A DNA stretch of 59,419 nucleotides, taken from contig CAMEDD010000015.1 in the NCBI GenBank assembly GCA_945913285.1, forward strand, positions 1 through 59,419, given 5' to 3'. The notes beneath the pieces were generated by a model, which saw nothing but the letters and a program-made list of their open reading frames with translations, did no database searches and was not told the DNA's origin. A program made the position numbers and the translations under genes. This document shows positions 5,923 through 21,690 of the stretch, piece by piece. This stretch comes from Candidatus Sulfopaludibacter sp. SbA3. Its GTDB lineage: Bacteria; Pseudomonadota; Alphaproteobacteria; Caulobacterales; Hyphomonadaceae. Positions within the stretch are counted from its first letter, which is position 1. Every line of letters begins with the position of its first letter.

Positions 5923-6389
5923 GGCGCTGCGCTCTCCGAAAAGACAATCGTCGCCTGAACCAGTCCGCGTTCAGATGATGTCAGCTCCGCTGATACCACA
6001 GACAGGTTCAGTTCGTTTTCGGTCCGTTCGAGCCAGGCAAATACGGACGTGGAGTCGGCCGCAGCAAATACAAACCGGGATTGCCCCGGGGTGGACGCAT
6101 CCTGTTGAAAGGTCATACCCATTTCTGTTGCCCATTGGGCGGCCAGCGCGGTCGCCTCAGGCAACGGGCGCGGGGCCACCGCCGGCCGGTATAGCGCTGC
6201 CGCGTCCTTCAGCTTTTGCAGCCGGATCAGGCTGCCTTCCGATTGAACGACGTTCAAGGCCGCGGCTTCGCGGCGCTCAAGCATCGGCACGAGACCAAAC
6301 TGAATGATGAGCGCAATCAGGGCGATGATCGCGGCCAGCGTGAGGAGCAATCGCTCTCTTGGTGCACGTTCCTGCCAAAACGACATCAT
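5919..6389 (-). CDS. gspM: Type II secretion system protein M
   Basis: A 156-residue bitopic inner-membrane protein. A short cytoplasmic head (WQERAPRERLLL) is followed by one membrane helix (about residues 16-34), a coiled segment, and a small periplasmic ferredoxin-like domain. This is the usual GspM plan. GspM forms the assembly platform with GspL and GspF. The gene overlaps gspL (6386-6389) and gspN (5919-5922) by four bases each. Two consecutive ATG codons are present at the start, and either could be used. Confidence 0.85.
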   Translation of the reverse strand: MMSFWQERAPRERLLLTLAAIIALIALIIQFGLVPMLERREAAALNVVQSEGSLIRLQKLKDAAALYRPAVAPRPLPEATALAAQWATEMGMTFQQDASTPGQSRFVFAAADSTSVFAWLERTENELNLSVVSAELTSSERGLVQATIVFSESAAP

Positions 6390-7504
6390 GGGCGCGCCCT
6401 CAACATTATGTCGGTCTGGACGCCCTGCGGCGTGTCCGCTGCGCTCACCCGTTCAACGTCGAGGCCTGATGCTTCCAGGCTTGCGCGAAATGCCTGCTCG
6501 CTCTGACGGTCCGCGAAAATCAGGCTTGCCCGAAGCCCTTGCTCATTCTGCGAAAAGCTCATGCGAGCCAGCTGGACAGAATCGCTTTCGGCGATCGCCT
6601 TGTAGAGATCGGAGGCCATCGCCCTGAAGCTGCCATTCCCGGAAGAAAGCGATTGCTCCATTTGGCGGCGCACATCCTTATGCACGTCGGCGGGCTCAGG
6701 GGCGCCCGGAAACTGGGCGCGGAATGCGCTACGAGCTGCGGCGTCGTTGAGCGCCGCTGACCGCTCGAGCTGGCTGGTTTCGGTCCAGAGACTGCCGCCC
6801 CAGAGCACGATCGCTGCCAGGGCGAGAGACGCGGCAAGGCGCCAGAATCCAAACCCGGAAGCCGGGCGTGTTGTCTCAGTCGACTTGCCTGTGTTGGCCA
6901 GCGTCAGTCCGGCGTTCTTCTGGTAGGCCTCGGACAAAAAGGCGAATGAGCCGCGGTGGACTGTCCGGGCGCCCGTCAGTCCTGCCGCCTGAATCAGCGC
7001 CTCAACCGCCTCGTCCGGCAGTGCGCCGTCGGCGCCCAAAATTCGGCCGGGTCCTGCAAGCAACCATCGATCTTCAAATCTGTAGACTGTGGGCTCGGCC
7101 TGATCGAGACTGCTTTCCGGGACGATCGGCGCGTGACTGAGACCGAGGCTTCTCAGCAGGCCGGCCCAGTACTCGAAGAGTGATTTATCAACAACGAAAA
7201 CGACACGGCTGGCATCCCCGCGGCTGCGCGGCCCGAGTGTCAGATGCACATCTTCAATCGGTTGGGCGATCTCGTCTTCGAGCGCATAGAGGGCGGCGCG
7301 CCTTGCTTCGGATTCGGACCGCGCGGCGACGGGAATCTGGAAGCGGGCCACCGCCAGGGCCGGCGCGAAGGCGACAGCCTTGGTCTGCGCATTTCCCCGG
7401 AACGTTTCGGGCGCGATTTCCTGAACGCTGGCGTCCTTGCGGGTTGCAATCCGCACGGGCGAGCCCCGCGAGCTCGGAAGTTCGATGTAGACATCCGCCT
7501 TCAT
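6386..7504 (-). CDS. gspL: Type II secretion system protein L
   Basis: A 372-residue protein with the GspL plan: an actin-like cytoplasmic domain (about residues 1-215), one membrane helix around 225-240 (ASLALAAIVLWGGSLW), and a periplasmic domain of about 130 residues. GspL recruits the ATPase GspE to the inner membrane and binds GspM. It overlaps gspK at 7501-7504 and gspM at 6386-6389. Sequence similarity in this family is low, so the call rests on domain plan and gene order. Confidence 0.88.
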   Translation of the reverse strand: MKADVYIELPSSRGSPVRIATRKDASVQEIAPETFRGNAQTKAVAFAPALAVARFQIPVAARSESEARRAALYALEDEIAQPIEDVHLTLGPRSRGDASRVVFVVDKSLFEYWAGLLRSLGLSHAPIVPESSLDQAEPTVYRFEDRWLLAGPGRILGADGALPDEAVEALIQAAGLTGARTVHRGSFAFLSEAYQKNAGLTLANTGKSTETTRPASGFGFWRLAASLALAAIVLWGGSLWTETSQLERSAALNDAAARSAFRAQFPGAPEPADVHKDVRRQMEQSLSSGNGSFRAMASDLYKAIAESDSVQLARMSFSQNEQGLRASLIFADRQSEQAFRASLEASGLDVERVSAADTPQGVQTDIMLRARP

Positions 7505-8472
7505 CCGGCCACTCCAAACGAACGCCAGACGATCCGGGGTGAGCCCTGGCTTTCAGTGCTCAGTATGAACTGGAAGGGCCAGCTGCCTGACCCGAGCGCC
7601 ACGCGCCCGCTGCCCGTAAAGTAAAATCCCTGGACCGACATCGGTAATCCCGCGAGTGCGAGCTCCAGGCCCGGGTCTCTGGCCGCATACGCGTTGATTT
7701 CAGATACGCTGTTCCAACCGGACGCCGGGCGTGCGTCGATGAACCTTCGGGCTTCGGAAAGCGAAAGTGCGCCGTCTGTCGCTGCGTTCAGGACATAGGC
7801 CGAGCCTGTATCCATCGCATTCATGTTCAGGCGCAAAGGCCCGGTCTCGGGAACGGCGCATGTATAGGGTGCAATGGACCGTCGCAGCTCCGGCGTAAAC
7901 CCGGGCAGGGGCGCGAGCTCCGCGAGACCTTGCATCGGCTGGTTCGCGGCATGAAAGCCAGCTTGCCGCGTGGTGTAATAGTCATCCTCAGCGCCGCCCG
8001 GAAGTTGCTGGGTATCGGCGTCCACCCAATCGGTCAATGTGGCGACGAGGGAGTCTGCATCCGGTCGGGGTATGCCCATCTCGTCCAGCAAGGCCCTGAG
8101 GGCTGACGACTGCCGTGCACGGATCGTTTCATCGGCACTTGCCAGCGCATTCAGGTTGAGACAGGGCGGCAACTCCCGAAGATCCAGGATGATCTGACCG
8201 CCGTCAATCGGCAGGACCAGCGTCCGAACCCGGTCTGCACCCTCGCTCGCAGGCAGGCGGCTCGCGCGCGTCATTTCGGACGCCGATGCGAGCGCCGCCG
8301 CTTCGGCCGAGCGGGCTGCCCAGGATGCGGCCGAACGGCGCGCGCTGAGTTTCTGGGTCTCGGTCTGGCGTGCGATCGTTTCGGTCACGATCAGCGCAGC
8401 GACTGAAAGGGTCGCCACGATCAGCAGGATAGACAGCAATGCAGCGCCTGCCTGTTTGGACGCCGGGATCAT
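7501..8472 (-). CDS. gspK: Type II secretion system minor pseudopilin K
   Basis: A 323-residue minor pseudopilin. The start is set at the ATG at 8472, whose sequence MIPASKQAG leads straight into the pseudopilin helix (AALLSILLIVATLSVAALIV) and overlaps the gspJ stop by four bases. A longer frame exists upstream but would hide the prepilin signal. The residue five places after the cleavage Gly is not Glu, as is normal for GspK. The large C-terminal globular domain contains acidic patches such as GGAEDDYY. GspK caps the pseudopilus tip with GspI and GspJ. Confidence 0.92.
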   Translation of the reverse strand: MIPASKQAGAALLSILLIVATLSVAALIVTETIARQTETQKLSARRSAASWAARSAEAAALASASEMTRASRLPASEGADRVRTLVLPIDGGQIILDLRELPPCLNLNALASADETIRARQSSALRALLDEMGIPRPDADSLVATLTDWVDADTQQLPGGAEDDYYTTRQAGFHAANQPMQGLAELAPLPGFTPELRRSIAPYTCAVPETGPLRLNMNAMDTGSAYVLNAATDGALSLSEARRFIDARPASGWNSVSEINAYAARDPGLELALAGLPMSVQGFYFTGSGRVALGSGSWPFQFILSTESQGSPRIVWRSFGVAG

Positions 8473-9095
8473 GAGCCGGCTCCAATCAGAAAGCGTGCCG
8501 ACAAGGTGTCGTCCTTCGAAAAGCCGAATTTCAGTTCTGCCTTCTGCGGCAGCGTTAAGCTGGCGCCAACCGGCACGCGCCATTCGCTCTGCCAGGTTTC
8601 GCCCCGGCCAAAGCGCACGTCCAGTGTTTCTATGCCTTCAAGCAGGACCTGATCCACCGTTTGGGTCGATTGCGCCGGATCGGCTGCTGCCCAGGACCGG
8701 CGTATCAACGATCCGTCTTCGAGCAGGTATTCAACTCTCTGGAGGTCGCTGCGCAACTCTTCCTTCGGGTTTGGCCAACCATTCCGGACAAAGACCATGA
8801 TCCTGCCATCATATCGCGGCGCGTAGCCTTCGAACAGGTAGGCAGGTTCACTTTGGTTTGCGTCCCGGCTCGGGCGCGTCATCAATGCACCCAGATCGGC
8901 TGATATCATGCTCAGCGCAGTCGAAAGCTCTGCCGCCTTGTCGCCGCGTGTTTCGACGGCGCGCGCCCCGGCGAGAGATTGAGTTGTCATGACTGCGCCT
9001 GCGCTTGCCATCAGCGCAATGACGAACAGGGCGACCAGTGTTTCAACAAGCGTGACGCCGGATGCACCGCGGTTTTCTGCACGCGTTCGGTTCAC
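8469..9095 (-). CDS. gspJ: Type II secretion system minor pseudopilin J
   Basis: A 208-residue minor pseudopilin. The prepilin motif is G-VTLVETLVALFVIALMA with Glu at +5, about 12 residues in. The gene begins with GTG at 9095, overlapping the gspI stop by four bases (GTGA). GspJ joins GspI and GspK in the tip complex that starts pseudopilus assembly. The length and position agree with the family. Confidence 0.92.
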   Translation of the reverse strand: MNRTRAENRGASGVTLVETLVALFVIALMASAGAVMTTQSLAGARAVETRGDKAAELSTALSMISADLGALMTRPSRDANQSEPAYLFEGYAPRYDGRIMVFVRNGWPNPKEELRSDLQRVEYLLEDGSLIRRSWAAADPAQSTQTVDQVLLEGIETLDVRFGRGETWQSEWRVPVGASLTLPQKAELKFGFSKDDTLSARFLIGAGS

Positions 9096-9460
9096 GGTGA
9101 CCTGCCTTCGATCGCCAGCAGCGAAAGTTGGGCGAGGACTGTTTCGTTATCCGCCTCCGAGACCCGAATCCGGACACTGTACAGGCCTTGATTGGGCGTC
9201 GCTTCGATTGTTCGTGTCCAGACATACGTCCTGCCGCGCTGGACCTCCTCACCCGTCGTCTGAGGGCTGACGCCTTCGAGCTTTCCTGTCACGGTATCGA
9301 CGGCGATGTTATCGGCGACCGTCTTTGCCAGCAGGCGTTTATCAAGATCGCTGCTGAACCGCACGGTCTGCGTATTCAGCGACAGGAGCCCCATTGCGGC
9401 GACCGAGAACACCGACAAAGCGACCATTGTCTCTATCAGCGAAAAACCCTGCGTATTCAT
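9092..9460 (-). CDS. gspI: Type II secretion system minor pseudopilin I
   Basis: A 122-residue minor pseudopilin. It begins with a very short leader and the motif G-FSLIETMVALSVFSVAAMG, with Glu at +5. It overlaps gspH at 9457-9460 and gspJ at 9092-9095. The size fits GspI, the core of the tip complex. Confidence 0.93.
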   Translation of the reverse strand: MNTQGFSLIETMVALSVFSVAAMGLLSLNTQTVRFSSDLDKRLLAKTVADNIAVDTVTGKLEGVSPQTTGEEVQRGRTYVWTRTIEATPNQGLYSVRIRVSEADNETVLAQLSLLAIEGRSP

Positions 9461-9978
9461 GGCGCCCGGTCCATTTTTACCGATGGGGCGCTGACGGAGA
9501 CTTCGCGGTCCTTGGATTCGAGCACGACGGGCTCCAGGGTTGAATGTCCCAGCGGATCGATAATGAGATCGGGCGCCAATTGCGACAGAGCTGCAGCGGA
9601 GTCCGTTTCCGGAGATGAAACTGCCCAGCGGATACGCACGCCCGGTGCGAGCGTGTGCCTTTGGGTTCCGACGTTCGACCAGGCCCCATCACGCCAGGCG
9701 ACGATGGCATATCCTTGCGGCTCCAGAACCATACCCATCGGTGTGCCCGAAATCCGGGCCTGGGACTGCATCTGCTCAAGCGCGTGCGTCAGTCTTTCGC
9801 CCTCGGTTCTGAGCGGATCTGCAGGGCGCGCCGTGGCCACGATCAGCGCAGACGCCAGCGCCGTGATTGACAACGTGACGAGAACCTCAACCAGAGAAAA
9901 GCCTGCGGACCGCGCCGGATCTCTGGCGCGCCGTTCACTCTCCATTGTTGGCGCGAAGTTCGCGGGCAGGCAGGGCAT
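9457..9978 (-). CDS. gspH: Type II secretion system minor pseudopilin H
   Basis: A 173-residue minor pseudopilin with the motif G-FSLVEVLVTLSITALASAL and Glu at +5. The chosen ATG (9978) sits 9 bases after the gspG stop and gives an unusually long 27-residue leader. A second ATG at 9945 gives a 16-residue leader, more usual for a prepilin. Neither has a good ribosome site, so the start is uncertain. The globular domain is beta-rich, as in GspH, which connects the tip to the GspG shaft. Confidence 0.9.
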   Translation of the reverse strand: MPCLPANFAPTMESERRARDPARSAGFSLVEVLVTLSITALASALIVATARPADPLRTEGERLTHALEQMQSQARISGTPMGMVLEPQGYAIVAWRDGAWSNVGTQRHTLAPGVRIRWAVSSPETDSAAALSQLAPDLIIDPLGHSTLEPVVLESKDREVSVSAPSVKMDRAP

Positions 9979-9987
9979 GGGGATCGG

Positions 9988-10449
9988 TCAATCCCAGTTG
10001 CCGATATCGGCGTCAGGGCCTTCTCCGCCCGGCTGGCCATCCGCGCCGAGAGAGAAGAGATCATAGCGCCCGCCGGAGCGGGCGCCCGGGATCTGGTACT
10101 GGTAGGGGTTACCCCAGGGGTCCATCTGCACACGGCGGATATAGCCGCCTTGCCTGTAGAGCGCGGCGTCTATGCCGGGCGGCGGCGCAGACAGCGCCGC
10201 CAGGCCTGCCGACGCACTCGGATAGTTATACAGATCAAGGCTGTATTGTTCGAGCGCGCTTTCGAGGCTGGCGATGTCGGAGCGTGCCTTTGAAATCCTC
10301 GACCGGTCGCCAACCGGCGCAACGTTCACGATGATCAAAGTCGCCAGCAGTCCCATGATGAAAACAACGACCATCAGTTCGACCAGCGAAAAGCCGCTTT
10401 GACGGCGTGCCAGGCGCGGCTTCGATCTGGGGCGCGAAGGTGTGAGCAT
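9988..10449 (-). CDS. gspG: Type II secretion system major pseudopilin G
   Basis: A 153-residue major pseudopilin. The motif G-FSLVELMVVVFIMGLLA has Glu at +5, and the C-terminus carries the GspG signatures DPWGNPYQY and DIGNWD. I place the start at the ATG at 10449 because a strong GAGGGAG ribosome site lies just upstream; the frame also opens at an unlikely TTG at 10464. This leaves an 11-base gap after gspF, unlike most joins in the operon. That may allow separate, higher translation of the shaft subunit. Confidence 0.95.
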   Translation of the reverse strand: MLTPSRPRSKPRLARRQSGFSLVELMVVVFIMGLLATLIIVNVAPVGDRSRISKARSDIASLESALEQYSLDLYNYPSASAGLAALSAPPPGIDAALYRQGGYIRRVQMDPWGNPYQYQIPGARSGGRYDLFSLGADGQPGGEGPDADIGNWD

Positions 10450-10460
10450 GAGTTTCTCCC

Positions 10461-11672
10461 TCAACCAAGTGCAAGAGTATTGAGTTGCATGATCGGCAGC
10501 ATGATCGACAACACGATGGTGCCGACGATGCCGCCCAGAATGACGATGATCGCGGGTTCGAGCAGGCTCATCATCGTACTTGTGGCCGCTTCGAACTCGC
10601 TCTCGAGAAAATCGGCTGCCCGGTTCATCATCGCAGGCACATCTCGCGCGGCTTCGCCGCTCTGCACCATGTGTGTCAGAAGCGGCGGAAAAACCTGCGT
10701 AGCGCGCATGGCAGATGACAGCGTGCTGCCCTGCTGCACTTTCTCGATGATGGTGGTGGCGGCGTCCTGGAAAATCTTGTTGCTCATGGCGCCGCGGGCT
10801 GCCGACAGGGCTTCAATCACGGTCGCGCCTGAGCTGGCCAGCGTGGCGTGTACACGCGCGAACTGCGCGGCAGACAATGTTCGGTTCAAGGAACCAACGA
10901 ACGGCAACTCCAGCAGGAGGCCGTCGAGCGATCTCTTGAAACCCGGGTTTTTAAGGGCCTGGGAGAACAGGGCGATGCCAACGCCGATGATGACGGCCAC
11001 CAGCCAGCCCCACATCCGCAGGAAATTCGAGGTCCCAATCACGATGTTGGTGAGCAGGGGCAGTTCTGTCGTACCGAGCATGGCAAACTGTTCGACGAGT
11101 TTCGGAACGACGAATGTCATCAGCGCGGTCACCATAAGCAGCGCCATGATGCCGAGCACGGCCGGGTAAACGAGCGCGGCCTGCGCCGTCGAGGCCATCT
11201 TGTAGGAGCGTTCGAGATTTGTCGCGAGCTGGTCCAGCACGCCAGGCAAGCGTCCCGCAGATTCACCTGCTGCAACAACCGAGCGGTAGAGGGGCGGAAA
11301 GGCTGCGGGCGCAGACCTCAGCGAGTCGGCGAGCGATACGCCTTCCATTACCTGCGAGCGCACGCCGAGGATCAGGGACTTTACGGATTTGTCGCTGCCA
11401 TCCGCAGCGGCGGCTGTGAGCGCCTGTTCAACGGTCATGCCGGATTGCAGGAGGACGGCCATCTGGCGTGTAAAGAGCGTTCTCTGCTTGTGCGAAAGCT
11501 TGCCGCGCAGCCTGGCTTTACCGGCCTTGGCGGGGTCGGACTCCTGAACTTCAACCGGCGTAAGCTGACGCGCCCGCAGCTCTCGGCGGGCAGCGCGCGC
11601 GTTGTCAGCCGAGATCACGCCGCTGGTGCGGCGGCCATCTGTGGTGAGCGCTTTATAGTCAAACGCTGCCAT
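10461..11672 (-). CDS. gspF: Type II secretion system inner-membrane platform protein F
   Basis: A 403-residue polytopic protein with two related halves, each a helical cytoplasmic domain followed by membrane helices (about 170-190, 220-240 and 375-395). The start is taken at the ATG at 11672 (MAAFDYKALTTDGRR), which matches the usual GspF N-terminus and has an AAGGGA upstream. A start at 11699 would add nine residues not expected for the family. The gene overlaps gspE by 14 bases. Confidence 0.93.
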   Translation of the reverse strand: MAAFDYKALTTDGRRTSGVISADNARAARRELRARQLTPVEVQESDPAKAGKARLRGKLSHKQRTLFTRQMAVLLQSGMTVEQALTAAAADGSDKSVKSLILGVRSQVMEGVSLADSLRSAPAAFPPLYRSVVAAGESAGRLPGVLDQLATNLERSYKMASTAQAALVYPAVLGIMALLMVTALMTFVVPKLVEQFAMLGTTELPLLTNIVIGTSNFLRMWGWLVAVIIGVGIALFSQALKNPGFKRSLDGLLLELPFVGSLNRTLSAAQFARVHATLASSGATVIEALSAARGAMSNKIFQDAATTIIEKVQQGSTLSSAMRATQVFPPLLTHMVQSGEAARDVPAMMNRAADFLESEFEAATSTMMSLLEPAIIVILGGIVGTIVLSIMLPIMQLNTLALG

Positions 11673-13143
11673 TGGACCAGGTTTCCCTTCGGCAGACATG
11701 CAGCAGCTCGTCGGGGCTCGTCTCGCCGCTCAGGACATGGCGCATGCCGTTGCCGAACAACATGTCCGCCTGTTCGAAGGCGACACGTTCGATCTGGTCT
11801 TCGCTCGCCTGTTCGTGGATCAGGCGCTTGATGTTTGAATTGATCACAAGCAGCTCGTACACGCCGAGGCGGCCTGAGTAGCCGGTCTTTCCGCAGGCGT
11901 CGCACCCGCCTGAATTATAGAGCTGTCCTTCAAAGCTGTCCGGCAAGCCCAGCCGGCCTTTGAGCGCAGAATCGGGCGGGAAGGGGGTCTTGCATTGAGG
12001 ACAGAGCCGGCGGACGAGGCGCTGGGCGAGCACGGCGCGAAGCGTCGACGCCAGCAGGAAACTCTCGATCCCCATATCCCGGAGCCGCGTGATCGCGCCG
12101 GCGGAACTGTTCGTGTGGACGGTCGAAAGCGCCAGACGGCCGGTCAACGCAAACTCGAGCGCAACTTCAGCCGTTTCGGAATCCCGGATCTCGCCGACCA
12201 TCACGATGTTCGGATCGTTGCGAAGGATCGAGCGGAGCGTCGCCGCAAATGTCAGGCCGACCTTATGGTCCATCGGCGTCTGGCTGATGCCATCGAGGCC
12301 GTACTCGACCGGGTCTTCAAGCGTCATGATGTTGACGCGTCCGCTGTTGAGCAGCGCGAGCGCCGAATAGAGTGTCGTCGTCTTTCCGGAGCCGGTGGGT
12401 CCCGTCACAAGGATCACGCCGTTGGGTTCGGCGATGACGGCTTTGAACCGCTCAAGCGTGTGTTGGTCCATGCCGAGGGCGTCGAGGCCGACGAGCGCCT
12501 GGCGCGTATCGAGGATCCGCAAGGCGACACGTTCCCCGTACCGGGTGGGCAAGGTCGCCACGCGCACGTCCAATGCGCGCCCGCCCAGAGACAGGGACAC
12601 CCGTCCATCCTGCGGCATGCGCTTCTCGGAGATGTCGAGCCGGCTCATGACCTTGATACGCGAGACAAGCGGCGCCGCGATACGCCGCGAGGCCGACAGC
12701 ACTTCCTGAAGTTCGCCGTCGATCCGGTACCGGATCGAAAGCTTTTCCTCGAACGGGTCGATGTGAATGTCTGACGCGCGGCGCTTGACGGCGTCCTGCA
12801 GCAGTCCGTTGATCAGGCGCACGATCGGCGCGTCGCCATCGCCCGCCAGCAGGTCTTCGGTTTGCGGAATACCGTCGAACAGGGTTTCGAGGTTTTCCTG
12901 TTTCTCGGCAGCGGCCGCGGCGGTGCCGTCCAGCGCAGAGCCGCCGAAGCCGTCCGACAGCAGGCGTTCGAACTCGATGGAAGAATGCGCTTCCATGACG
13001 AAGGACTGGCCGAGTACGCGCCGTACTTCCGTCAAAGCCAGCGGATCGGCGCCTTGGCGTACCGCGACTGTAAGTGGGACCCGTCCTGGAACGACGGCAA
13101 ATCCCTTATCTTTGGCGAATGCGTAGTGAACCTGCGATCGCAC
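11659..13143 (-). CDS. gspE: Type II secretion system ATPase E
   Basis: A 494-residue cytoplasmic ATPase that powers pseudopilus assembly. Walker A GPTGSGKT is at residues 248-255, followed by the Asp box (LEDPVEY), Walker B (IVMVGEIRD) and the His box (STVHTNSS). A zinc-binding four-cysteine element follows (CPQC and CDAC). All key residues are present. The start is GTG at 13143, with AAGGTGAG placed suitably upstream, six bases after the gspD stop. Confidence 0.97.
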   Translation of the reverse strand: MRSQVHYAFAKDKGFAVVPGRVPLTVAVRQGADPLALTEVRRVLGQSFVMEAHSSIEFERLLSDGFGGSALDGTAAAAAEKQENLETLFDGIPQTEDLLAGDGDAPIVRLINGLLQDAVKRRASDIHIDPFEEKLSIRYRIDGELQEVLSASRRIAAPLVSRIKVMSRLDISEKRMPQDGRVSLSLGGRALDVRVATLPTRYGERVALRILDTRQALVGLDALGMDQHTLERFKAVIAEPNGVILVTGPTGSGKTTTLYSALALLNSGRVNIMTLEDPVEYGLDGISQTPMDHKVGLTFAATLRSILRNDPNIVMVGEIRDSETAEVALEFALTGRLALSTVHTNSSAGAITRLRDMGIESFLLASTLRAVLAQRLVRRLCPQCKTPFPPDSALKGRLGLPDSFEGQLYNSGGCDACGKTGYSGRLGVYELLVINSNIKRLIHEQASEDQIERVAFEQADMLFGNGMRHVLSGETSPDELLHVCRRETWSNGSV

Positions 13144-13149
13144 GGGCGC

Positions 13150-15126
13150 TCACCTTACCGGATCAGTTGCCAACCCCATTGGCCCACGTCCGTTTATCAC
13201 GTCCGCAACGAAACGGTCGATCGAGTTATCTTCGGGAATGCCGCGCATCAATTCCTGTCCGCGGACATAAAGGTATTTCTGGTCCGTAGCTGCGCGCGCG
13301 TCTTCCTTGTTGCGCACAATCGTCGGTCGGATGAAAACCATCAGGTTCGTCCGCGTTGTTGCCTTGGCGTTGGAGCGGAAAAGGCGCCCGGCGACGGGAA
13401 CATCGCCAAGCACCGGCACCTTGGTCTCGCGGACCGTGTCTGTCTGCTCGACGAGGCCGCCAAGCACGATGATCTCGCCGTCATCCGCAAGCACGCTCGC
13501 CGTGATCTCGCGCTTGTCGAGGATCAGGTCAGGCGTGACGGTGCCGATACTGCCGAAGACGCTGGAGACTTCCTGGCGGATGTCCAGCCGGACGGTGTCG
13601 TTTTCGCCAATCCGCGGCGTGACTTCGAGTTGGATGCCGACGTCCTCGCGCTCCACCGTACGAAACGGGTTCGAATTTGCATCCCCGAGGACCTGGCCGG
13701 TTGTGACCGGAATCTCCTGGCCGACAATCAACGTCGACTTTGCGTTGTTGAGTGTCATGCCAAACGGCGTGGACAGGATGCGCGAGGTGGTATCGTTCTC
13801 GACGGCGTTCAGGATCACGCCGAACAGGTTGTCACCGGACTGGCCGCCAAACCCGAGCGCCAGACCGCTGGTGCCGGTCAGCGAACTGATGGCGGCGTCG
13901 CGGAAGGGATTTTCCACGGTCAGGTCGCTGAAACCGTCTGTGAGCAGAGCGCCCGTCAGCGCCAGCAGGTTTGGCGCAGAGCGCGAAAAGTTCGTCGACG
14001 CGAATGGCACATCGCTGCGTCCGTTGCCGGCGAGCAGGAACTGAAGGCCAAGCTCCTTGGCTGTGTCGTCCGACATCTCGACAATGATTGCCTCGACCAT
14101 CACCTGGGGGCGCCGCACGTCGAGGGCCGAGATGACCTTTTCCATGGCCACGAGCGTTTCAGAATTGCCGCTGATGATCAGGGAGTTCGTGGGCGGATGG
14201 TGCGAAATCGTCTGTGCTGGCGGCGCCGTGTCCGACGGCGCGCGCTGCGCGGCAATGCTGAGCCCGACCCGCTCCAGGATAGGGACGATCTCACCGGCAT
14301 CGGTATAGTTGAGCGGTATGACGCGGATATTGTCGCGCTGGGGTTCGGTCGTGTCGAGCTGCAGCGCCACCTGGCGCGCCTTTTCGACCGCGCTGGCAGA
14401 GCCTCTCAGCAGGACCGCATTGCTCGTTTGTGACGCCACGGCGAGAAAGCGCTGGAACCCCGAAGACTGTCCCTGGCCGCCGCCGCCGGCTGCATCGCCT
14501 TGAAGCCGGTTCAGCACCGCCTCCATCTCGAGCGCGGGCACGTTGCGCAGGGCCACGGTTTCTGTCACCGCCGGGTCCCGATCGATGGTCTTGATCATGC
14601 TCCGCACGCGCTGCAGGTTGGACGCGTAGTCCACGATCACCAGCGTATTGGTATTTGCGTTCGCCGCGATCTGGCCCTGGCTGTCCAGCACGGGCTTGAT
14701 CTGCTGGGCCACGTCCATGGCGTTGGCATAGTCGAGCTTGACGATCTCGGTCACGAAAGCATTCGCGCCCTGACCGGACAGGGGCGCTTCCGTTGCCGCT
14801 GTGGATTCCGGCACGATTCTGTAGGTGTCCTTGCCGGCCGGTATGGCGGCGAAGCCCTGGACACGCAGTGTCGTGAGAAACACCTGAAAAACGTCCGCCG
14901 TGCTCATCGGCGTTTGCGAGACGACCGACACGCGCGCTTTCCGGACATCCGGGTGGGTAATGAATGTATAGCCGGTCAGCATCGAGACGTCGGCGATCAG
15001 CGTATTCAGCTCGACGTCATCGAGCTTGAGAACGTGTTTGTCACCGCTCGGCGCAGTTTCTTGAGCCGCCGCAAACTGCGACAAGGAAAGCGCCGCCGCG
15101 GCGGCAGCGAGGATGTGTCTGGTCAT
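13150..15126 (-). CDS. gspD: Type II secretion system outer-membrane secretin D
   Basis: A 658-residue secretin. A signal peptide ends near SQFAAA (residue 21). It is followed by the N0 domain, N1-N3 repeats (about 120-350) and the C-terminal barrel domain, which contains the secretin signature VPVLGDVPVAGRLF. N3 has a Gly/Gln-rich loop (GDAAGGGGQGQSSG). The protein forms the outer-membrane channel. The gene overlaps gspC by four bases. No S-domain or pilotin-binding tail can be identified with certainty. Confidence 0.96.
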   Translation of the reverse strand: MTRHILAAAAAALSLSQFAAAQETAPSGDKHVLKLDDVELNTLIADVSMLTGYTFITHPDVRKARVSVVSQTPMSTADVFQVFLTTLRVQGFAAIPAGKDTYRIVPESTAATEAPLSGQGANAFVTEIVKLDYANAMDVAQQIKPVLDSQGQIAANANTNTLVIVDYASNLQRVRSMIKTIDRDPAVTETVALRNVPALEMEAVLNRLQGDAAGGGGQGQSSGFQRFLAVASQTSNAVLLRGSASAVEKARQVALQLDTTEPQRDNIRVIPLNYTDAGEIVPILERVGLSIAAQRAPSDTAPPAQTISHHPPTNSLIISGNSETLVAMEKVISALDVRRPQVMVEAIIVEMSDDTAKELGLQFLLAGNGRSDVPFASTNFSRSAPNLLALTGALLTDGFSDLTVENPFRDAAISSLTGTSGLALGFGGQSGDNLFGVILNAVENDTTSRILSTPFGMTLNNAKSTLIVGQEIPVTTGQVLGDANSNPFRTVEREDVGIQLEVTPRIGENDTVRLDIRQEVSSVFGSIGTVTPDLILDKREITASVLADDGEIIVLGGLVEQTDTVRETKVPVLGDVPVAGRLFRSNAKATTRTNLMVFIRPTIVRNKEDARAATDQKYLYVRGQELMRGIPEDNSIDRFVADVINGRGPMGLATDPVR

Positions 15127-15989
15127 TGAGAAAGACTTGCCGTTGGCGCCACTCTGAGCCTGACAATCGCGCCCTGGCGCACGATATCGAGCGCCAGGTC
15201 CGTTCCGGTCGAGACAGACTGATAAATCTGGTCAGGCCGTTGACCTTCAACCGCCTGGCCATTGACCCGCAGGATCAGGTCGCCCGACTGGAGACCAGCG
15301 GCCTCGAACGCGCCGGCGCCGCGCGGTTCCAGTTTGTATCCGGACACTTCCCCGCTCCGGTATTCGGGGGTGAGCAGCGTATCGTTCGCAAGCGCAGCCG
15401 GTGTGACGCTGATGGCAGGGCCGGTTTCTGCTGCGGCAAGCGCGCCGCTGGCCGATGCCTCTGGCGCCGCCGCAAAGAGAGTTTTGCCGTTGGGATAAAG
15501 GCTGAGGGTCTCGAGCGCGCCATTGCGAGACAGATGGACTGTGTCGCCCGTCACGTTGACGAGCACGACGCCCGGCACAACTTCATCGCCGGGAACAAAG
15601 CGCTTCTGACCGCCGTCAGGGAAGGAGATGATGGCGCTGCTGGCTGTTGCATTGCCGGTGACGGATCGCACGCCGGAGAGTTTGATATCCAACGTCGTTT
15701 CGCTGGCGACCAGATTGTTTCTCGAAGCCACCAGGGAGTCGGCGGCAAAGGGGTTCATCTGAGTGAGAAGCTGTTCGGAAGCACCGTCGATTTCCGGTTG
15801 CGGCTCCGTCGCCCCGGTCGCTGCCAGCTGGGTCGTATAGGCGGCCGCGTCGGTTGGCGCGAGAACGACCCAGGCGAGCCGTCCCAGCAGAACACCGACG
15901 GTCACGGTGAGTACCGTCTCCGTGGCGATACGGCCTGCGTGTTCCACACGGACGTTGGGAAAGCTTCTTTCCGTTCTGAAAAGTGCCAT
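15123..15989 (-). CDS. gspC: Type II secretion system protein C, first gene of the operon
   Basis: A 288-residue bitopic inner-membrane protein. A short cytoplasmic tail is followed by one membrane helix (about 27-45), the homology region that contacts the secretin (about 85-165), and a C-terminal PDZ domain (about 205-280, with GAFEAAGLQSGDLILRVNGQ). GspC links the inner-membrane platform to GspD and helps choose substrates. It starts the operon; about 90 bases separate it from the hairpin at 16078-16109, and its promoter should lie there. Confidence 0.93.
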   Translation of the reverse strand: MALFRTERSFPNVRVEHAGRIATETVLTVTVGVLLGRLAWVVLAPTDAAAYTTQLAATGATEPQPEIDGASEQLLTQMNPFAADSLVASRNNLVASETTLDIKLSGVRSVTGNATASSAIISFPDGGQKRFVPGDEVVPGVVLVNVTGDTVHLSRNGALETLSLYPNGKTLFAAAPEASASGALAAAETGPAISVTPAALANDTLLTPEYRSGEVSGYKLEPRGAGAFEAAGLQSGDLILRVNGQAVEGQRPDQIYQSVSTGTDLALDIVRQGAIVRLRVAPTASLSQ

Positions 15990-16077
15990 TATTCTAGACC
16001 CTTTCGATCAAACCATTCACGGTAATCACACTTGTGCGACAGTTCCGCGACGATGCATTACCTGTTGTGCTTCAGCA

Positions 16078-16109
16078 CAGAGACCGTTGCAAGAACGCAA
16101 CGGTCTCTG
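16078..16109 (-). terminator. Hairpin between the TonB-dependent receptor and gspC
   Basis: A perfect 13-bp stem (CAGAGACCGTTGC with its complement) closes a six-base loop. It lies 30 bases after the receptor stop codon and before gspC on the same strand. No T-run follows on the minus strand, so termination may be partial. A smaller stem (16066-16079, TGTGC/GCACA) sits directly beside it. It may limit read-through from the receptor into the T2SS operon or serve as a processing site. Confidence 0.55.
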
Positions 16110-16141
16110 GCCCAGATAAATGTCATGTCCGATGGCGCGGC

Positions 16142-18856
16142 CTAGAACGAGGTGCCGAGACCGAGTGAGATCGTTGTGCCGAGGTCGTACTGGTTGACCT
16201 GAACGAACCCGCCATTACCGGACTGGAACTCATCGAAGTCTTCACCGAGCAAATTCTGGGCTTTGAAGTCGAACGAGAATTCGCGACCGTTGAGCTCAAA
16301 ATCCTTCTTGTAGACGAAGTCGAGGTTGATGCCGGGATCCTGGATGAAGTCCGGCTGACCCGCCGGGGCCCGGGCCGTCGTCCGCTCACTGGCATAGGTT
16401 GCCAGCAGGGTTGCCTGCGACCGGGCAACATCATCTTTCCAGCCGAACTGGATGTTGGCGAGATGTTCAGACTGACCTTGCAGCCGTGAACCATCGACGA
16501 TGAAGTCTGTTGCAGGACTACCTTGTCCGCCGCCTTGCAGCGGGAACACAATATCCCCAGCGCTCGCCTTCACTTCCGACTTTGAGTACGTGTAGTTCGC
16601 CTGGATCAGGAATTCCTTGTTGCTCATCCAGTCGCCGGAGAAGGGGCTGTCGAACACGCGTTTGAAGTCGATTTCCGCGCCGTACAGGCTCGCGCTCGGT
16701 GCGTTCAGATACGTCTGGAACGTGGCAGCGCTTTGCGTGAACACGACCGATTCGACGGGATCTTCGAGGTTCTTGTAGAATGCACCGACCGTGAACGCCT
16801 GACCGCGATCAAAGTAGAGTTCATAGCGGGCGTCGAGGTTCAGAATTTCCGTATCTGTCAGGTACGGATTGCCAATGAACACGCGGCTGCTGTCGGGATC
16901 GAAATACTGTTGCGGTGCCAGTTCGCGGAACTGCGGCCGGCCGATGCTTTGCGAAGCACCGAGACGCAGCTGCTGATCTTCGGCGAAGTTCCAGGTCAGC
17001 GTCGCTGACGGAAGGATGTAATTGTTCTTTACGCCCGGGGTGCCGTCAGGGTCGGCTTCCGATGTGATGAGGCTCAGTGGATCGACGTTCTGAGCTGCGT
17101 TCTCGTAGCGTACGCCAATCGCGGTACGAACGAGCGGAATGATCTCCGCATCGACTTTTGCATATGCGCCGAACACATTCAGGTTTGCGTCATACGCGGC
17201 CGCACCGGCAGCGCCGGTCCGCTCCTGGATGACGAAAACATTCGGGTTGATGTTGAAGTTCGAGAAGAGGAAGTCCGCGCGCTCCTGCCGGATGCCGAAG
17301 TCGAGGGGCGGGCTGCCTACGATAAAGCTGAACGCCCGCGTCTGTGCCGAGCGTTCGTTGGTGTAAGCCTCGACCCCAGCCGAGTACTCGACGCTGCGGG
17401 CAGATGAAAGGGCCTGCTCGTAAGTGACATCAATGCCGCCGCTGGCGACTTTGTCGTCGAGATAGCTGAACGAGATCGAGTTGCTCGAGCCCGAACCGCT
17501 CGGATTGTAGACGAAGCCGCCAACGACCGGATCGATGACGTAGCTGATTTCGCGCTCATAGGGTGCATCACGCTTGGTGCTGGACAGCGCCGAGCGCCAC
17601 TCAAATGTCCAGTCTCCGCGGTAGTGGGTTCCGTCCACCTGGGTGCTCAGGAGCTCACGCTCATACCAGGCCGTGCGGTCTCTGCGATCATCGCGAGCTG
17701 CCAGACCGTCGAAGCCAACCGTGGAGCGGGCTTCTTTCGTCGTCCGGCGGATGTAAAGGTTGGTCCAGTTGACTTCGTCGTCACCGAAATCGAGACCGAC
17801 GCCGAGAAGTCCGTCAATGCCGATGTCCTGCTGCGTGGACACGTAGTCGAACGTCGAAAGCTCCGTCAGGATTCCGCCGTTCAGTTCGCCGTCATTCTGA
17901 GTGGCGTTGCGCGTCTTCCAGCCGTTGCTGTAACCGAGCACGCCTACAATGCCGAGCTCGAACGCATCCATATCGAAGACGGCGCCGCCGGTCGCATCAA
18001 AGCTGCCATTCATCGGAATGGAGTTGTTGCTCTGGATCAGATTGATTTCCGCGTTTTCGAAACCCTGACCAATGCGGGTCAGTTCGGCGGGGGTGAAGTT
18101 GTTGTTGACGATACGCAGTCCCGTCGAGAATGCGTTTCTGACCGCAAGCGGCAGTTTGCGCGTGCCATCGTCAAAGCCGAGAACGTCGGTTTCCGAACCG
18201 TAATAGGTCAGGCCATTCTCGAACGTCGTTTCGGTGTTGGCGCCGGTGCCAAAGCCGATTTCAAGAAAGTTCTCGGAAGGAATGTTGAGTGTCCGCAGGT
18301 CGATGATGCCGCCGCCGAATTCGGCCGGATACTCGGCAGAGTAGGTTTTCTGGACAAGCACGTTCTCGAGAATCTTCGTCGGGAACAGATCGAGCGGAAC
18401 GACGCGCTGGAGCGGTTCCGGGCTCGGGAGAGGGGAGCCGTTGAGGCGGGCTGAAGAATAACGTTCGCCAAGGCCGCGCACGTAGACGAAACGGCCTTCT
18501 GCAATGCTCAGGCCGGTGACGCGTGCCAGCGAGCTCGCCGCATCCGAATCGCCCTGGCGTTCGAGGTCTTCTGCCGACAGGAACGCTGCCACTTCGGATG
18601 TGTCACGAAGGACTTCTGGGATGTAACGGCCGAGAACAACGACTTCGACGACCTGAATGTCTTCTTCGCCCGAAGGCGCCGGCGTGGTTTCGGCCGAACT
18701 GCTCTCGGTTACGGCAGCGTCCGTCTCGGCTTCGGTCGGCGTGACTTCGGTTTCGGTTTCCGTTTCAGTTTCAGTCTGAGCGAGGGCAAATGCCGGGACG
18801 AGGATCGCTGTCGAAGCGATCAACAGGGCCCGAAGGGAGAGCGGGTTGAATTTCAT
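16142..18856 (-). CDS. TonB-dependent outer-membrane receptor
   Basis: A 904-residue receptor. A signal peptide ends near ALAQ (residue 27). It is followed by an acidic repeat tail (TETETETETEVT), a TonB-box-like stretch (DIQVVEVVV, about 69-77), a plug domain (about 80-230, with FVYVRGLGERY and ILENVLVQKTYSAEYPAEFGGG) and a large beta-barrel ending in Phe (GLGTSF). All parts look intact. It lies downstream of the beta-helix lipoprotein gene on the same strand, with a hairpin between them. The substrate cannot be told from the sequence. Energy would come from a TonB-ExbB-ExbD set such as that at 27-30 kb. Confidence 0.95.
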   Translation of the reverse strand: MKFNPLSLRALLIASTAILVPAFALAQTETETETETEVTPTEAETDAAVTESSSAETTPAPSGEEDIQVVEVVVLGRYIPEVLRDTSEVAAFLSAEDLERQGDSDAASSLARVTGLSIAEGRFVYVRGLGERYSSARLNGSPLPSPEPLQRVVPLDLFPTKILENVLVQKTYSAEYPAEFGGGIIDLRTLNIPSENFLEIGFGTGANTETTFENGLTYYGSETDVLGFDDGTRKLPLAVRNAFSTGLRIVNNNFTPAELTRIGQGFENAEINLIQSNNSIPMNGSFDATGGAVFDMDAFELGIVGVLGYSNGWKTRNATQNDGELNGGILTELSTFDYVSTQQDIGIDGLLGVGLDFGDDEVNWTNLYIRRTTKEARSTVGFDGLAARDDRRDRTAWYERELLSTQVDGTHYRGDWTFEWRSALSSTKRDAPYEREISYVIDPVVGGFVYNPSGSGSSNSISFSYLDDKVASGGIDVTYEQALSSARSVEYSAGVEAYTNERSAQTRAFSFIVGSPPLDFGIRQERADFLFSNFNINPNVFVIQERTGAAGAAAYDANLNVFGAYAKVDAEIIPLVRTAIGVRYENAAQNVDPLSLITSEADPDGTPGVKNNYILPSATLTWNFAEDQQLRLGASQSIGRPQFRELAPQQYFDPDSSRVFIGNPYLTDTEILNLDARYELYFDRGQAFTVGAFYKNLEDPVESVVFTQSAATFQTYLNAPSASLYGAEIDFKRVFDSPFSGDWMSNKEFLIQANYTYSKSEVKASAGDIVFPLQGGGQGSPATDFIVDGSRLQGQSEHLANIQFGWKDDVARSQATLLATYASERTTARAPAGQPDFIQDPGINLDFVYKKDFELNGREFSFDFKAQNLLGEDFDEFQSGNGGFVQVNQYDLGTTISLGLGTSF
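18751..18774 (-). repeat. Hexanucleotide repeat coding the TE tail of the receptor
   Basis: Four imperfect copies of a six-base unit (TTTCGG, TTTCCG, TTTCAG, TTTCAG on the plus strand) encode the alternating Thr-Glu tail just after the receptor signal peptide. Changes in copy number would lengthen or shorten the tail without shifting the frame. Confidence 0.6.
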
Positions 18857-18898
18857 GGTCAGAGATCCTGCGTGGAGTCTTTCGGGGAGAATTGAGAA

Positions 18899-18924
18899 AC
18901 GGAGGCCTCCGGGGAGGCCTCCGT
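18899..18924 (-). terminator. Strong hairpin between the beta-helix lipoprotein and receptor genes
   Basis: A 12-bp perfect inverted repeat (ACGGAGGCCTCC and its complement) with only two bases between the arms, so the top pairs must open. It lies 13 bases after the lipoprotein stop codon and 43 bases before the receptor ATG. On the minus strand GTTTCTC follows, a weak T-rich tract. It could partly terminate or stabilise the upstream mRNA, allowing unequal amounts of lipoprotein and receptor from one transcript. Confidence 0.6.
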
Positions 18925-18937
18925 CTTGTCAGGATGC

Positions 18938-20494
18938 CTAGCAGGCCGGTTGGCCCGGGATGCCGCAGGTCCAACCCACGTACCAGGTGTCAGCGGCGTT
19001 CCGGACAGCGCCGATATACGTGACCGGGGTCAGGAAGCCGGTGATGCTGGTGTTCACCGGAAGTGCCGGATCGGTTGCGTTCAGCGCGGTCGGATAGGCC
19101 GTTACCGGGACCGCCGTTTCGTTGGCGCCGTTGATGAAACCACCCGTCAGCGTCGACGTGCCAGTCAGGACGTTGTTGGCGCCCAGCCCAACTTGATCGG
19201 TAACCTGCTGTGTGGTGATGCCGCTCGCGCCTTCGGTGTTGCCGCCGTTGCAGGAGAAGAACACCGAGTTGTAGAGCGGGCCGTTCGGCGCTGTAGCAAC
19301 ACCTGCACCGTTCGGGTTCGTCAGCGTCACGGCCGTTGCCAGGTTGAGACACTGCTGGTTGATTTCAGAACGCAGGACCGAGTTGTAAACACGGCCAACA
19401 TGGCCTGTGTTGTGAACGATCGCATCCCGGCCAGCGGTCGAGCGCATGACGATCGTCCAGTTGGCGTAGGTCGGGCGCGTAAAGAAGGTCGCCGTGTTCG
19501 TACCGCGCGAGCTTGTTTCGAACCCGAAGTCACCGCCGCCGGTACGCTGGTAGACGATGCCGAACTGGGCGGCGCCGCGCCAGCCAGAGTCCGTGTCAAA
19601 CGAGTCGTCGTCGTTGCCGGAAAGGACGATCCGGCGAAGGTTGAGGTTGCCACCGAAAATCTCGATGCCGTCATCCGACGAGTTGTGAACCTGGATGAAT
19701 TCAGCCGTCGTGCCCGAGCCAACGCCGGCGAAGGTGATGCCGTTCAACTCGTTGTTGGGGGAGATGGTGAAACCGGAGTAGGACAGGCGAAGGTAGCGGA
19801 TGCGGCCGCTGTTGTCGGCAGGCGACAGGCCGCCATAGACAGCGTTCGAGCCTTCAACCTGGGCAGTACAGGCGATGTTTGGCGGGGTGACGGCCACACA
19901 GCCATCTGACGTCGGAGCACGGCCGTTGACAACCAGACCGCCCCATTGGCCGATCGAGTTATCAGTCGCGGTGCCTTCGACGTTCTGCCGGCTCGTCATG
20001 ATGATCGGGGCCGTTGCGGTGCCTTCAGCGAAGATCTGCGAACCGCGGTTTACGAGAAGATAATCGAGACCTGAGTTTCCGAAGATGGTCACGCCGGGCT
20101 CGATCGTCAGAATGCCCTGCTGGCCGCCTGAAATCGGGGCGGCCTGGTCTGCGCCGAGGTCAGTTCCGACCTGCGTGCGGCCCGAGACCGAGTAAATCGT
20201 CCCGGCGCGGTTCGGAACAACGAGGTTGCCGGTGATGGTGGTCGGAAGCTGGCAGATGCGGCGGTTGGAAACCGTGCCGACGTTCGAGAAGCCCGTCGGG
20301 CAATCTGCGGCCGGGCCGACCGGCGTAACCGGCGGAGGCGGGGCAGGCGGCGGCGGAACCGGAACAGGTGCCGGGGCGGGTGCAAATGCGCCCACGCCGG
20401 GCGAGGCAACGCCGTCGGCGCCGCTACAGGCGCCAAGCATCGCTGCGGCGGCGCAAGCGAGCAGCGCCGAGCGGTATGATTTCGATTTCAGCAT
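18938..20494 (-). CDS. Beta-helix-like surface or periplasmic lipoprotein paired with the receptor
   Basis: A 518-residue exported protein. I choose the ATG at 20494 because GGAGA lies just upstream and the sequence then opens with a lipoprotein signal (lipobox LGAC, lipid Cys at 23); a longer frame lacks this. A proline-rich linker follows (about 39-61, repeated AP, VP and PPPP). The rest consists of short beta strands with repeated Gly/Asn turns, including TIEPGVTIFG, GQWGGLVVNGRAP, HNSSDDGIEIFGGN and GNDDDSFDTDSGW, as in right-handed beta-helix proteins. The acidic Asp clusters may bind metal. Proteins of this kind are often found beside TonB-dependent receptors. The function is unknown. 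Confidence 0.8.
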   Translation of the reverse strand: MLKSKSYRSALLACAAAAMLGACSGADGVASPGVGAFAPAPAPVPVPPPPAPPPPVTPVGPAADCPTGFSNVGTVSNRRICQLPTTITGNLVVPNRAGTIYSVSGRTQVGTDLGADQAAPISGGQQGILTIEPGVTIFGNSGLDYLLVNRGSQIFAEGTATAPIIMTSRQNVEGTATDNSIGQWGGLVVNGRAPTSDGCVAVTPPNIACTAQVEGSNAVYGGLSPADNSGRIRYLRLSYSGFTISPNNELNGITFAGVGSGTTAEFIQVHNSSDDGIEIFGGNLNLRRIVLSGNDDDSFDTDSGWRGAAQFGIVYQRTGGGDFGFETSSRGTNTATFFTRPTYANWTIVMRSTAGRDAIVHNTGHVGRVYNSVLRSEINQQCLNLATAVTLTNPNGAGVATAPNGPLYNSVFFSCNGGNTEGASGITTQQVTDQVGLGANNVLTGTSTLTGGFINGANETAVPVTAYPTALNATDPALPVNTSITGFLTPVTYIGAVRNAADTWYVGWTCGIPGQPAC

Positions 20495-20628
20495 GAGAGT
20501 CTCCGTCGTGATCCCTGTGCGGGTGCTCCGGCAGAGGTATCCGCCGCGCTCACTAGACGATGACACCCGCCTACCCGCGAGACGACCCTTAGGAACGGAT
20601 TGCAACAATTACCGCAAGTTTAGATGAC

Positions 20629-20643
20629 GGTTGTGTGACAACC
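20629..20643. promoter_or_regulatory. Short palindrome upstream of the lipoprotein gene
   Basis: GGTTGT-GTG-ACAACC is a perfect 6-bp palindrome with a three-base centre, 135 bases upstream of the lipoprotein ATG. Its TTGT/ACAA core resembles the neighbouring hairpin at 20659-20678. It may be an operator for the lipoprotein-receptor unit. No regulator is evident in the window. Confidence 0.3.
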
Positions 20644-20658
20644 ACGTTTCGCACCGGC

Positions 20659-20678
20659 TTGTGTCGGTTCGGACACAA
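20659..20678 (-). terminator. Stem-loop directly after the hydroxylase stop codon
   Basis: TTGTGTC-GGTTCG-GACACAA forms a perfect 7-bp stem abutting the stop codon of the oxygenase gene (20679-20681). No T-run follows on the minus strand. It may be a weak terminator or mRNA-stabilising element, or part of a pair of related inverted repeats with 20629-20643. Confidence 0.4.
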
Positions 20679-21524
20679 CTACATATTTTCGTAGTGCTCG
20701 GGAGGGAACATTTCGCCCCATCCGCGTTCGCGAAACCACTTTGTGATGATATACTTGCTGCCCTTGCGAACCTTCATTCCGTGATGGATCGTATACGGAT
20801 TAACGGAGCCGTCTGCCTTGAGATTGTTCCAGATTACGGCTTTGCCTTTTTCCGGCATGATGGTCTTCTCGAGCCGCCGGAAGCGCGTGCCTCCGCCCTC
20901 TTCGACGTCGTTGAGATAGATCATGAAGGTCCAGGTTCTCTGGCCCAGGAACTGACAGAAAACCTGGAACTGATGGGTGCCGGGTTCGAAGTAGTCGTAG
21001 TGGGCTTTGTACTCCTGCTCGAGATCGTATCGCTGGCCCTGGGTGACGTCTGTGTAGGACCAGTGAATGCCCATCGCTTCTGCAATGAGTTCATCCAGCT
21101 CCATGATCAGGTTGTGCCCGCGCATGCCGATGTCGGAGGTGCGGGACGTGCGCACCTTGGGGTCTGCGAACGCGTCGGCCGTCGTCGAATCGCGAAGCCC
21201 CTGATCAATCAACTCCATAACGGCGTCGCAGACGTCCGGGACAAGAAAGTCCTTCCACACATACATCTGCGCATTTGTGACTGGCACTCTCTGAATGTCC
21301 GGATGCGTCAGCGCTCTTTTTGTTATGGCGCATTGAGCAAGCGCGGCATGGGAGACCTCGGAAGAGGGCCGCCGGCCCTCGTAAGCTTCCTGCATCAATT
21401 CACGAACCTGCGAATCGCTGAGGCCTTTAAGTTTAAGGAGCCGCCGGACTTCGTGGGGTTCTACGCCCGCCCGAAGCCGGACCCAGGTAAACGTCATCAG
21501 GTCTTCTTCGGTGGCCGTCGTCAT
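20679..21524 (-). CDS. 2-oxoglutarate/Fe(II) oxygenase, prolyl-4-hydroxylase type
   Basis: A 281-residue protein whose C-terminal half (about 80-275) is a prolyl-4-hydroxylase-like double-stranded beta-helix. The iron ligands fit H175 and D177 (AHYDYFEPG) and H247 (TIHHGMKV), with K257 (KGSKYIITKWF) as the 2-oxoglutarate-binding Lys ten residues later. No signal peptide is seen, so it should act in the cytoplasm. The start has GGAG upstream. It lies directly upstream of, and on the same strand as, a lipoprotein with a proline-rich linker. That linker is an attractive but untested substrate. The role could instead resemble PiuC-like oxygenases found beside iron receptors. Confidence 0.88.
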   Translation of the reverse strand: MTTATEEDLMTFTWVRLRAGVEPHEVRRLLKLKGLSDSQVRELMQEAYEGRRPSSEVSHAALAQCAITKRALTHPDIQRVPVTNAQMYVWKDFLVPDVCDAVMELIDQGLRDSTTADAFADPKVRTSRTSDIGMRGHNLIMELDELIAEAMGIHWSYTDVTQGQRYDLEQEYKAHYDYFEPGTHQFQVFCQFLGQRTWTFMIYLNDVEEGGGTRFRRLEKTIMPEKGKAVIWNNLKADGSVNPYTIHHGMKVRKGSKYIITKWFRERGWGEMFPPEHYENM

Positions 21525-21621
21525 TGCGCATTCTCCGTTTCATCTGATCGTTACGACGGTGAAGTGACGGATGAATGACAGAGATCGGTAGCCTTCGGAG
21601 TGCGGCGTTCGCATAAGCGTA

Positions 21622-21683: not shown

Positions 21684-21690
21684 GACTATT

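Follow-up and report, generated by a model that had tools for sequence, protein, structure and literature searches.

The question raised by this locus is whether a surface lipoprotein, a TonB-dependent receptor, a prolyl 4-hydroxylase (P4H) and a type II secretion system (T2SS) that lie in one row make up a single machine or several units with tasks of their own. The locus lies in a contig of 59,419 nucleotides (CAMEDD010000015.1, assembly GCA_945913285.1, positions 1 to 59,419), referred to here as the window, from Candidatus Sulfopaludibacter sp. SbA3, placed by GTDB in the Hyphomonadaceae. The genome is Hyphomonas-like, and the closest named relatives with the same row are two Hyphomonadaceae metagenome-assembled genomes (MAGs) and one Hyphomonas MAG. 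On the minus strand, in order of transcription, were found a P4H-type 2-oxoglutarate (2OG)-Fe(II) oxygenase (281 aa; 20679..21524), an ElpS-type lipoprotein (518 aa; 18938..20494), the receptor (904 aa; 16142..18856) and gspC, followed by gspD to gspN down to position 5164. The gaps are 184 bases between P4H and lipoprotein, 81 bases between lipoprotein and receptor and 152 bases between receptor and gspC, while gspC and gspD overlap by 4 according to their coordinates. The co-directional order of these genes, as described in the original prediction, was confirmed by gene order and domain matches. The block is probably a module for surface capture and uptake under phosphate starvation, in which the T2SS would be a helper from the neighbourhood and the P4H a recurrent accessory.

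The lipoprotein-receptor pair and phosphate

The lipoprotein gene lies immediately upstream of the receptor gene, which is followed by gspC, as is the case for ElpS. Its product carries a lipobox, LGAC, which by eye ends a hydrophobic leader and provides the acylation cysteine, followed by a proline-rich linker and a β-helix domain from about residue 60. Relatives of the lipoprotein were present in 96 of 105 genomes of the family, and the nearest ones among the loci aligned were from Caulobacteraceae (53–60% identity), with 53% for a Caulobacter MAG (L054) of the same gene order. The receptor contains PF07715 and PF00593; its nearest NCBIfam model was TonB-Xanth-Caul (TIGR01782) with 213.8 bits, below the cut-off of 310, and a phmmer search against solved structures returned nothing at E ≤ 0.001. 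The two genes were adjacent in 47/47 named loci, in 87/90 family loci (the other three end at a contig edge), in 40/40 loci from other parts of the phylum (order kept in 38, reversed in two) and in 9/10 plasmid loci (order kept in six, reversed in three). Of the 95 further family genomes with a match, the 90 with a listed place supplied the family loci, and 40 of the 46 matched genomes outside the family supplied the phylum loci. The distances in the lipoprotein and receptor trees were correlated over 59 loci (rho 0.836, compared to 0.935 for GspD and GspE) and within the 44 Hyphomonadaceae loci (0.792 and 0.911, respectively). That the lipoprotein and the receptor form a pair is well supported by this adjacency and tree congruence. 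Hence, of the capture-and-uptake module proposed earlier, the pair itself stands, while ligand capture and import are what we infer from it.

The row of lipoprotein, receptor and gspC–N was described in Caulobacter crescentus, where the gene of the lipoprotein ElpS (cc0170) and that of a TonB receptor (cc0171) directly precede gspC–N (Le Blastier 2010, PMC2996285), in the same order as here, and the same organization was reported for Xanthomonas campestris, Sphingomonas alaskensis and Hyphomonas neptunium (PMC2996285). ElpS production in Caulobacter is induced by phosphate (Pi) starvation (PMC2996285), and the Caulobacter T2SS and several TonB receptors belong to the PhoB regulon (PMC11208175). 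The FI, FII and FIII lipoproteins of Flavobacterium johnsoniae are ElpS-related and Pi-inducible; two of them adjoin Pi-inducible TonB receptors, one of which is in the phoBR operon (PMC8115612). This system belongs to the Bacteroidota, and neither a T2SS nor a P4H is mentioned for it in the available passages of PMC8115612. The SusCD/PusCD systems, in which a TonB receptor is capped by a ligand-binding SusD lipoprotein, have side-by-side genes as here and may work alike, but the present lipoprotein matched no SusD family domain in Pfam or NCBIfam and its model is a β-helix. The published work on Caulobacter and Flavobacterium therefore means that the core of the finding is already known; of the combination singled out earlier as deserving study, the lipoprotein-receptor-T2SS row was described in 2010. 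What is new here is above all the P4H gene with a PHO-box-like site of its own, an addition upstream relative to the Caulobacter locus, and its repeated occurrence beside the pair. Also new are the PHO-box-like site before the lipoprotein gene and the joint evolution of the pair apart from the adjacent T2SS; the rest is mostly in print.

The PHO-box-like sites and the link to phosphate were absent from the original prediction. Sites were scored as two CTGTCAY-like half-sites 11 bases apart, with a maximum of 14. The site before the P4H gene (21564..21581, minus strand; 13.4) and that before the lipoprotein gene (20624..20641, minus strand; 13.0) ranked first and second among all positions on both strands of the whole window, and a third half-site, 11 bp on from the P4H site, gives a further score of 11.8 (21553-21570, minus strand). 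Both sites match exactly the pattern YTGTCAYNNNNCYGTCAY, which occurs without mismatch three times in the 3.02 Mb genome, the third time before the gene of another TonB receptor; when one mismatch was tolerated, 13 matches were found, as against four for the reversed control. Thus, PHO-box-like sites are present upstream on the coding strand, as in a PhoB regulon, with a motif partly fitted to them. Across loci, the best score in the 300 bases upstream was ≥12 for P4H in 17/36 loci (0.25 expected from mononucleotide shuffles), for the lipoprotein in 33/144 (0.4 expected) and for gspC in 15/99 (0.35 expected), these counts not being independent as they include many close relatives and some contigs twice. 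The sites before gspC suggest that in some relatives the T2SS may be under phosphate control of its own. No score ≥12 was obtained upstream of the receptor (0/143), gspD (0/122) or the CAP-domain gene next to the P4H gene (0/18). The case for the sites rests on their rank, place, strand, genome-wide rarity and conservation. In an Alteromonas macleodii plasmid, the row reads phoB, phoR, phosphate binding protein, 2OG oxygenase, lipoprotein and receptor, and the same row was seen in one further locus (L268); phoB or phoR (bit score >150) was present within the fetched stretch in 5/40 phylum loci. When the sequence was scanned for promoters and terminators, nothing promoter-like was found on the minus strand.

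The third exact match (G000:C63:7149-7166, in L180) precedes a large outer-membrane receptor with, by eye, a carboxypeptidase-regulatory-like N-terminus, which may be a candidate second phosphate receptor.

Several observations weigh against control of the block by phosphate or against its role as a capture module. The number of sites scoring ≥12 in the window, two against 1.2 expected from dinucleotide shuffles, represents no enrichment; the sites were spotted by eye before scoring, and the pattern permits C at the second base of the second half-site because these sites carry it. The score upstream of the lipoprotein was below 12 in 18 Xanthomonas loci and in most Caulobacteraceae loci. In Caulobacter, cc0171 is constitutive, in rich and poor media alike, and its deletion left ElpS production intact; uptake via CC0171 was not demonstrated in that work (PMC2996285). 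The P4H gene, moreover, has no place beside most copies of the pair.

Taking the sites together with the expression reported in relatives, PhoB would bind before the P4H and lipoprotein genes and switch both on, and the receptor may be either co-transcribed or constitutive. The lipoprotein, a predicted β-helix that a flexible stalk tethers to the outer membrane, would bind or trim a phosphorus-bearing polymer or ester and pass the ligand to the partner receptor, which would import it. The T2SS would be a separately evolving neighbour that exports hydrolases and, as shown in Caulobacter, is needed for release of the lipoprotein from the surface. The P4H probably hydroxylates a protein serving the pair.

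A carbohydrate ligand is the alternative that fares best, although it is somewhat unlikely: the β-helix would bind or cleave a polysaccharide, the receptor would import the product and phosphate control would be secondary. The lipoprotein is modelled as a β-helix, with polysaccharide lyases, epimerases, polygalacturonases and phage tailspikes among its closest folds, and seven acidic residues (E249, D274, D275, E278, D296, D297 and D300) were identical in all nine rows compared, three of them from Bacteroidota. A plant cell-wall target has also been proposed for the Flavobacterium relatives (PMC8115612). However, likeness of fold shows no function, and the regulation in relatives points to phosphorus; the carbohydrate and phosphate views overlap if the polymer carries phosphate. 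Other searches with the lipoprotein were negative: Foldseek alone gave no fold, with nothing at E ≤ 0.001, the best phmmer match among solved structures had E 0.59, and no Pfam or NCBIfam family was matched at E ≤ 0.001. The gene itself occurs in single (∼520 aa) and tandem double (∼950 aa) forms inside one genus (family loci L078-L167) and in a triple form (∼1360 aa) in Gammaproteobacteria (L169, L170).

The prolyl 4-hydroxylase beside the pair

The P4H-type protein matched solved prolyl 4-hydroxylase structures (best E 1.2e-23) and the 2OG-FeII_Oxy_3 domain (PF13640, E 1.5e-15). Its HxD...H...K residues are intact (H175, D177, H247 and K257) and were conserved in 11/11 aligned rows. By eye, no signal peptide was found, and the enzyme is predicted to be cytoplasmic. 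Within the genus of the window, the P4H gene lies beside the lipoprotein gene in 15/16 single-copy genomes, and in the sixteenth (G052), where the contig starts at the lipoprotein, no P4H was found; the other 26 genomes gave no P4H match at E ≤ 0.001. Relatives of the enzyme (40–57% identity) occur away from the lipoprotein in eight genomes of three other genera, so that its place beside the lipoprotein looks derived in this clade.

Outside the genus, a P4H gene directly adjoins the pair in 18/18 Xanthomonas loci (upstream and divergent), in 3/3 fetched loci of a genus (g22) that, from its lipoprotein, is probably a sphingomonad (downstream and opposite), and in the family f40 as well as the Alteromonas macleodii plasmid (upstream and co-directional). 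The family f40 was taken as Alteromonadaceae because its phoB matches that of the plasmid at 94–99% in some loci. When 188 loci (3.61 Mb; at least five loci counted twice) were searched with three queries at E ≤ 1e-4, all 44 P4H matches, two of them fragments from one locus (L044), directly adjoined the pair and none lay elsewhere. A search of 118 f40 genomes gave 31 matches in 30 genomes, of which 21 lie elsewhere and ten beside the pair; the ten, from seven genera, share the strand of the lipoprotein gene and precede it by 142–308 bases, and three of them (G378, G440 and G448) overlap with the 44. Random placement would give about 0.03 within 2 kb, by our own estimate for genomes of 4 Mb. 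The P4H proteins form distinct groups, and the presence of P4H mapped on the lipoprotein tree requires seven changes (172 rows). Adjacency in distinct groups and lineages together with these changes shows that the association of P4H and pair is recurrent; at least four lineages, with three arrangements among them, have the gene next to the pair. No report of a P4H beside a lipoprotein-receptor pair was found in searches of the open-licence PubMed Central literature, nor was a paper there joining prolyl 4-hydroxylase, TonB-dependent receptor and phosphate.

The P4H could also be a passenger that came to lie beside the pair in this clade by chance, which we consider unlikely. In its favor, the neighbours of the related P4H genes are, by eye, leuC-like or purK-like in the five genomes read of the eight mentioned above, and the association within the genus, being confined to one clade, amounts to one event. 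Such an origin does not agree with the recurrence of the arrangement, with distinct P4H groups, in Xanthomonas, the probable sphingomonad genus and seven genera of f40, nor with the PHO-box-like site that the gene has for itself here.

With regard to the substrate, the proposal that the enzyme hydroxylates the proline-rich stalk of the lipoprotein was not supported out of sample and is kept only as a possibility, not favoured by this check. At least four [TSAV]P motifs in the 60 residues after the cysteine were found in 40/40 lipoproteins with an adjacent P4H and in 65/132 others, counted over 172 loci after 11 of 183 had been dropped (seven without a clear lipobox, two at a contig edge and two short). 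Among independent pairs, a mean of 3.4 of 5 went the same way and none the opposite way, an underpowered comparison (median p 0.25). When the count was extended to another 40 genomes from the family to which G378 belongs, the proportions were 4/7 and 10/33 (Fisher p 0.21, Mann-Whitney p 0.15); in this set, the stalk region of one lipoprotein with an adjacent P4H has a single proline. Separately, the lipoprotein frame of one family locus (L088, genome G051) is broken inside the proline-rich linker, the two tblastn pieces being in different frames, possibly through an assembly error in a repetitive stretch.

It may be suggested, tentatively and with no great likelihood, that several phosphate-starved lineages independently recruited a cytoplasmic P4H whose target is part of the ElpS-receptor pair or of the machinery making it, prolyl hydroxylation being then a step in building a phosphate-scavenging surface. 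If so, oxygen, iron and 2-oxoglutarate status would gate phosphate capture, and the link would tie an oxygen- and iron-dependent protein modification to phosphorus scavenging. The recurrent placement beside the pair is a lead to a physiological role of bacterial P4H enzymes.

Divergent from the P4H gene, a CAP-domain protein is encoded at 21655-22467 of the window on the plus strand and is kept beside P4H in the 14 P4H-clade loci compared; a promoter-like site, TTGACA-17-TAGTAT, overlaps its first listed start.

The secretion genes as a separate unit

The secretion genes follow the receptor as gspC (15123..15989; PF11356, E 1.7e-17; TIGR01713, 68.7 bits, below the cut-off of 101.6), the secretin gene gspD (13150..15126; TIGR02517, 548.4 bits, cut-off 351.35) and gspE, F, G, H, I, J, K, L, M and N (5164..13143), all on the minus strand and named by their best NCBIfam and Pfam matches. 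The best NCBIfam matches of gspE (598 bits, cut-off 630.25) and gspF (422.7 bits, cut-off 424) are both below cut-off, and the Pfam matches T2SSG, GspH, T2SSI, T2SSJ, T2SSK, GspL_C/T2SSL, T2SSM and T2SSN all exceed their own cut-offs. A full T2SS had been assigned to positions 15123-21524; the set from gspC to gspN is indeed present at the locus, but this interval takes in only gspC.

The trees of the pair and of the T2SS disagree. Over the 59 loci, tree distances were correlated at 0.164 for lipoprotein and GspE and 0.089 for receptor and GspE, and within the Hyphomonadaceae at 0.146 and 0.055, respectively. The receptor and lipoprotein of the window cluster with Caulobacteraceae, Xanthomonas and the single-copy loci of the genus g10 (the receptor also with g5), and its GspE clusters with double-copy genomes from the same genus and family as the window. 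Forcing the receptors of the genus into one clade was rejected (22 rows versus 51; approximately unbiased test, p-AU 1.59e-40), the constrained group having been picked after inspection of the tree. The trees were quick ones without a mixture model, and the discordance is large. It follows that the pair was replaced, or that old paralogs were sorted, while the T2SS stayed in place. Such discordance favours the view that lipoprotein and receptor work as partners and speaks against a T2SS devoted to the pair. A conserved gene row can thus combine two parts that evolve separately, in this case an exchangeable receptor pair and a T2SS that remains in place.

These data bear directly on the idea, taken from the original prediction, that the module is built by its own secretion machine. 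On this view, the lipoprotein reaches the surface by way of the T2SS, and all genes of the row form a single dedicated machine. In agreement with it, pullulanase is a precedent for a lipoprotein exported by a T2SS (also PMC2996285), and the T2SS follows the pair co-directionally in 42/47 named and 72/90 family loci. In Caulobacter, however, deletion of gspC–N left ElpS protease-accessible at the cell surface and abolished its release, the T2SS being required for release and not for surface display (PMC2996285); a surface lipoprotein retained without the secretion system is the outcome that the original prediction had named as refuting it, and the idea of a dedicated machine is left unsupported. 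The lipoprotein and receptor trees diverge from the Gsp trees, the pair evolving almost independently of the T2SS. Outside the family, a co-directional T2SS after the pair was seen in 12/40 phylum loci (two of these calls, L245 and L246, rest on a single GspE-like match of 29 and 35% identity) and in 2/10 plasmid loci. No T2SS was found within the fetched stretch in 3/47 named, 5/90 family, 27/40 phylum and 7/10 plasmid loci; it was divergent in 6/90 family loci and 1/40 phylum loci, and undecidable in 2/47 named, 7/90 family and 1/10 plasmid loci. Plasmid copies of the pair in Pseudoalteromonas and Alteromonas sit with a TonB-ExbBD-type cluster, and in three annotated Bacteroidota plasmids a relative of the lipoprotein adjoins a TonB receptor. 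A dedicated machine is hence improbable, being contradicted by the published work on the matching Caulobacter locus and by the trees, and its place is taken by the phosphate-acquisition reading, which lends itself to immediate testing.

A module for iron or siderophores in which the P4H processes a siderophore is very improbable. In its favor, iron transport is a classic task of TonB receptors, PiuC-like 2OG oxygenases adjoin siderophore receptors and the receptor has a weak hemin-family score; however, this score is 39.2 bits against a cut-off of 316.85, and the oxygenase matches prolyl 4-hydroxylase structures.

Slr4 of Pseudoalteromonas, likened here by description and not by sequence, is a predicted β-helical surface protein encoded beside T2SS genes, as is the lipoprotein of the window; it is a surface-layer protein and its gene is downstream of the T2SS genes (PMC7821379). 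In seven loci (L101, L102, L104, L108, L110, L153 and L254), the T2SS genes are found on the upstream side of the pair, in divergent orientation, and not downstream. In two Brevundimonas loci (L034, 8845-9645, and L036), a gspC-like gene lies directly upstream of the pair, with no other T2SS gene in the fetched stretch.

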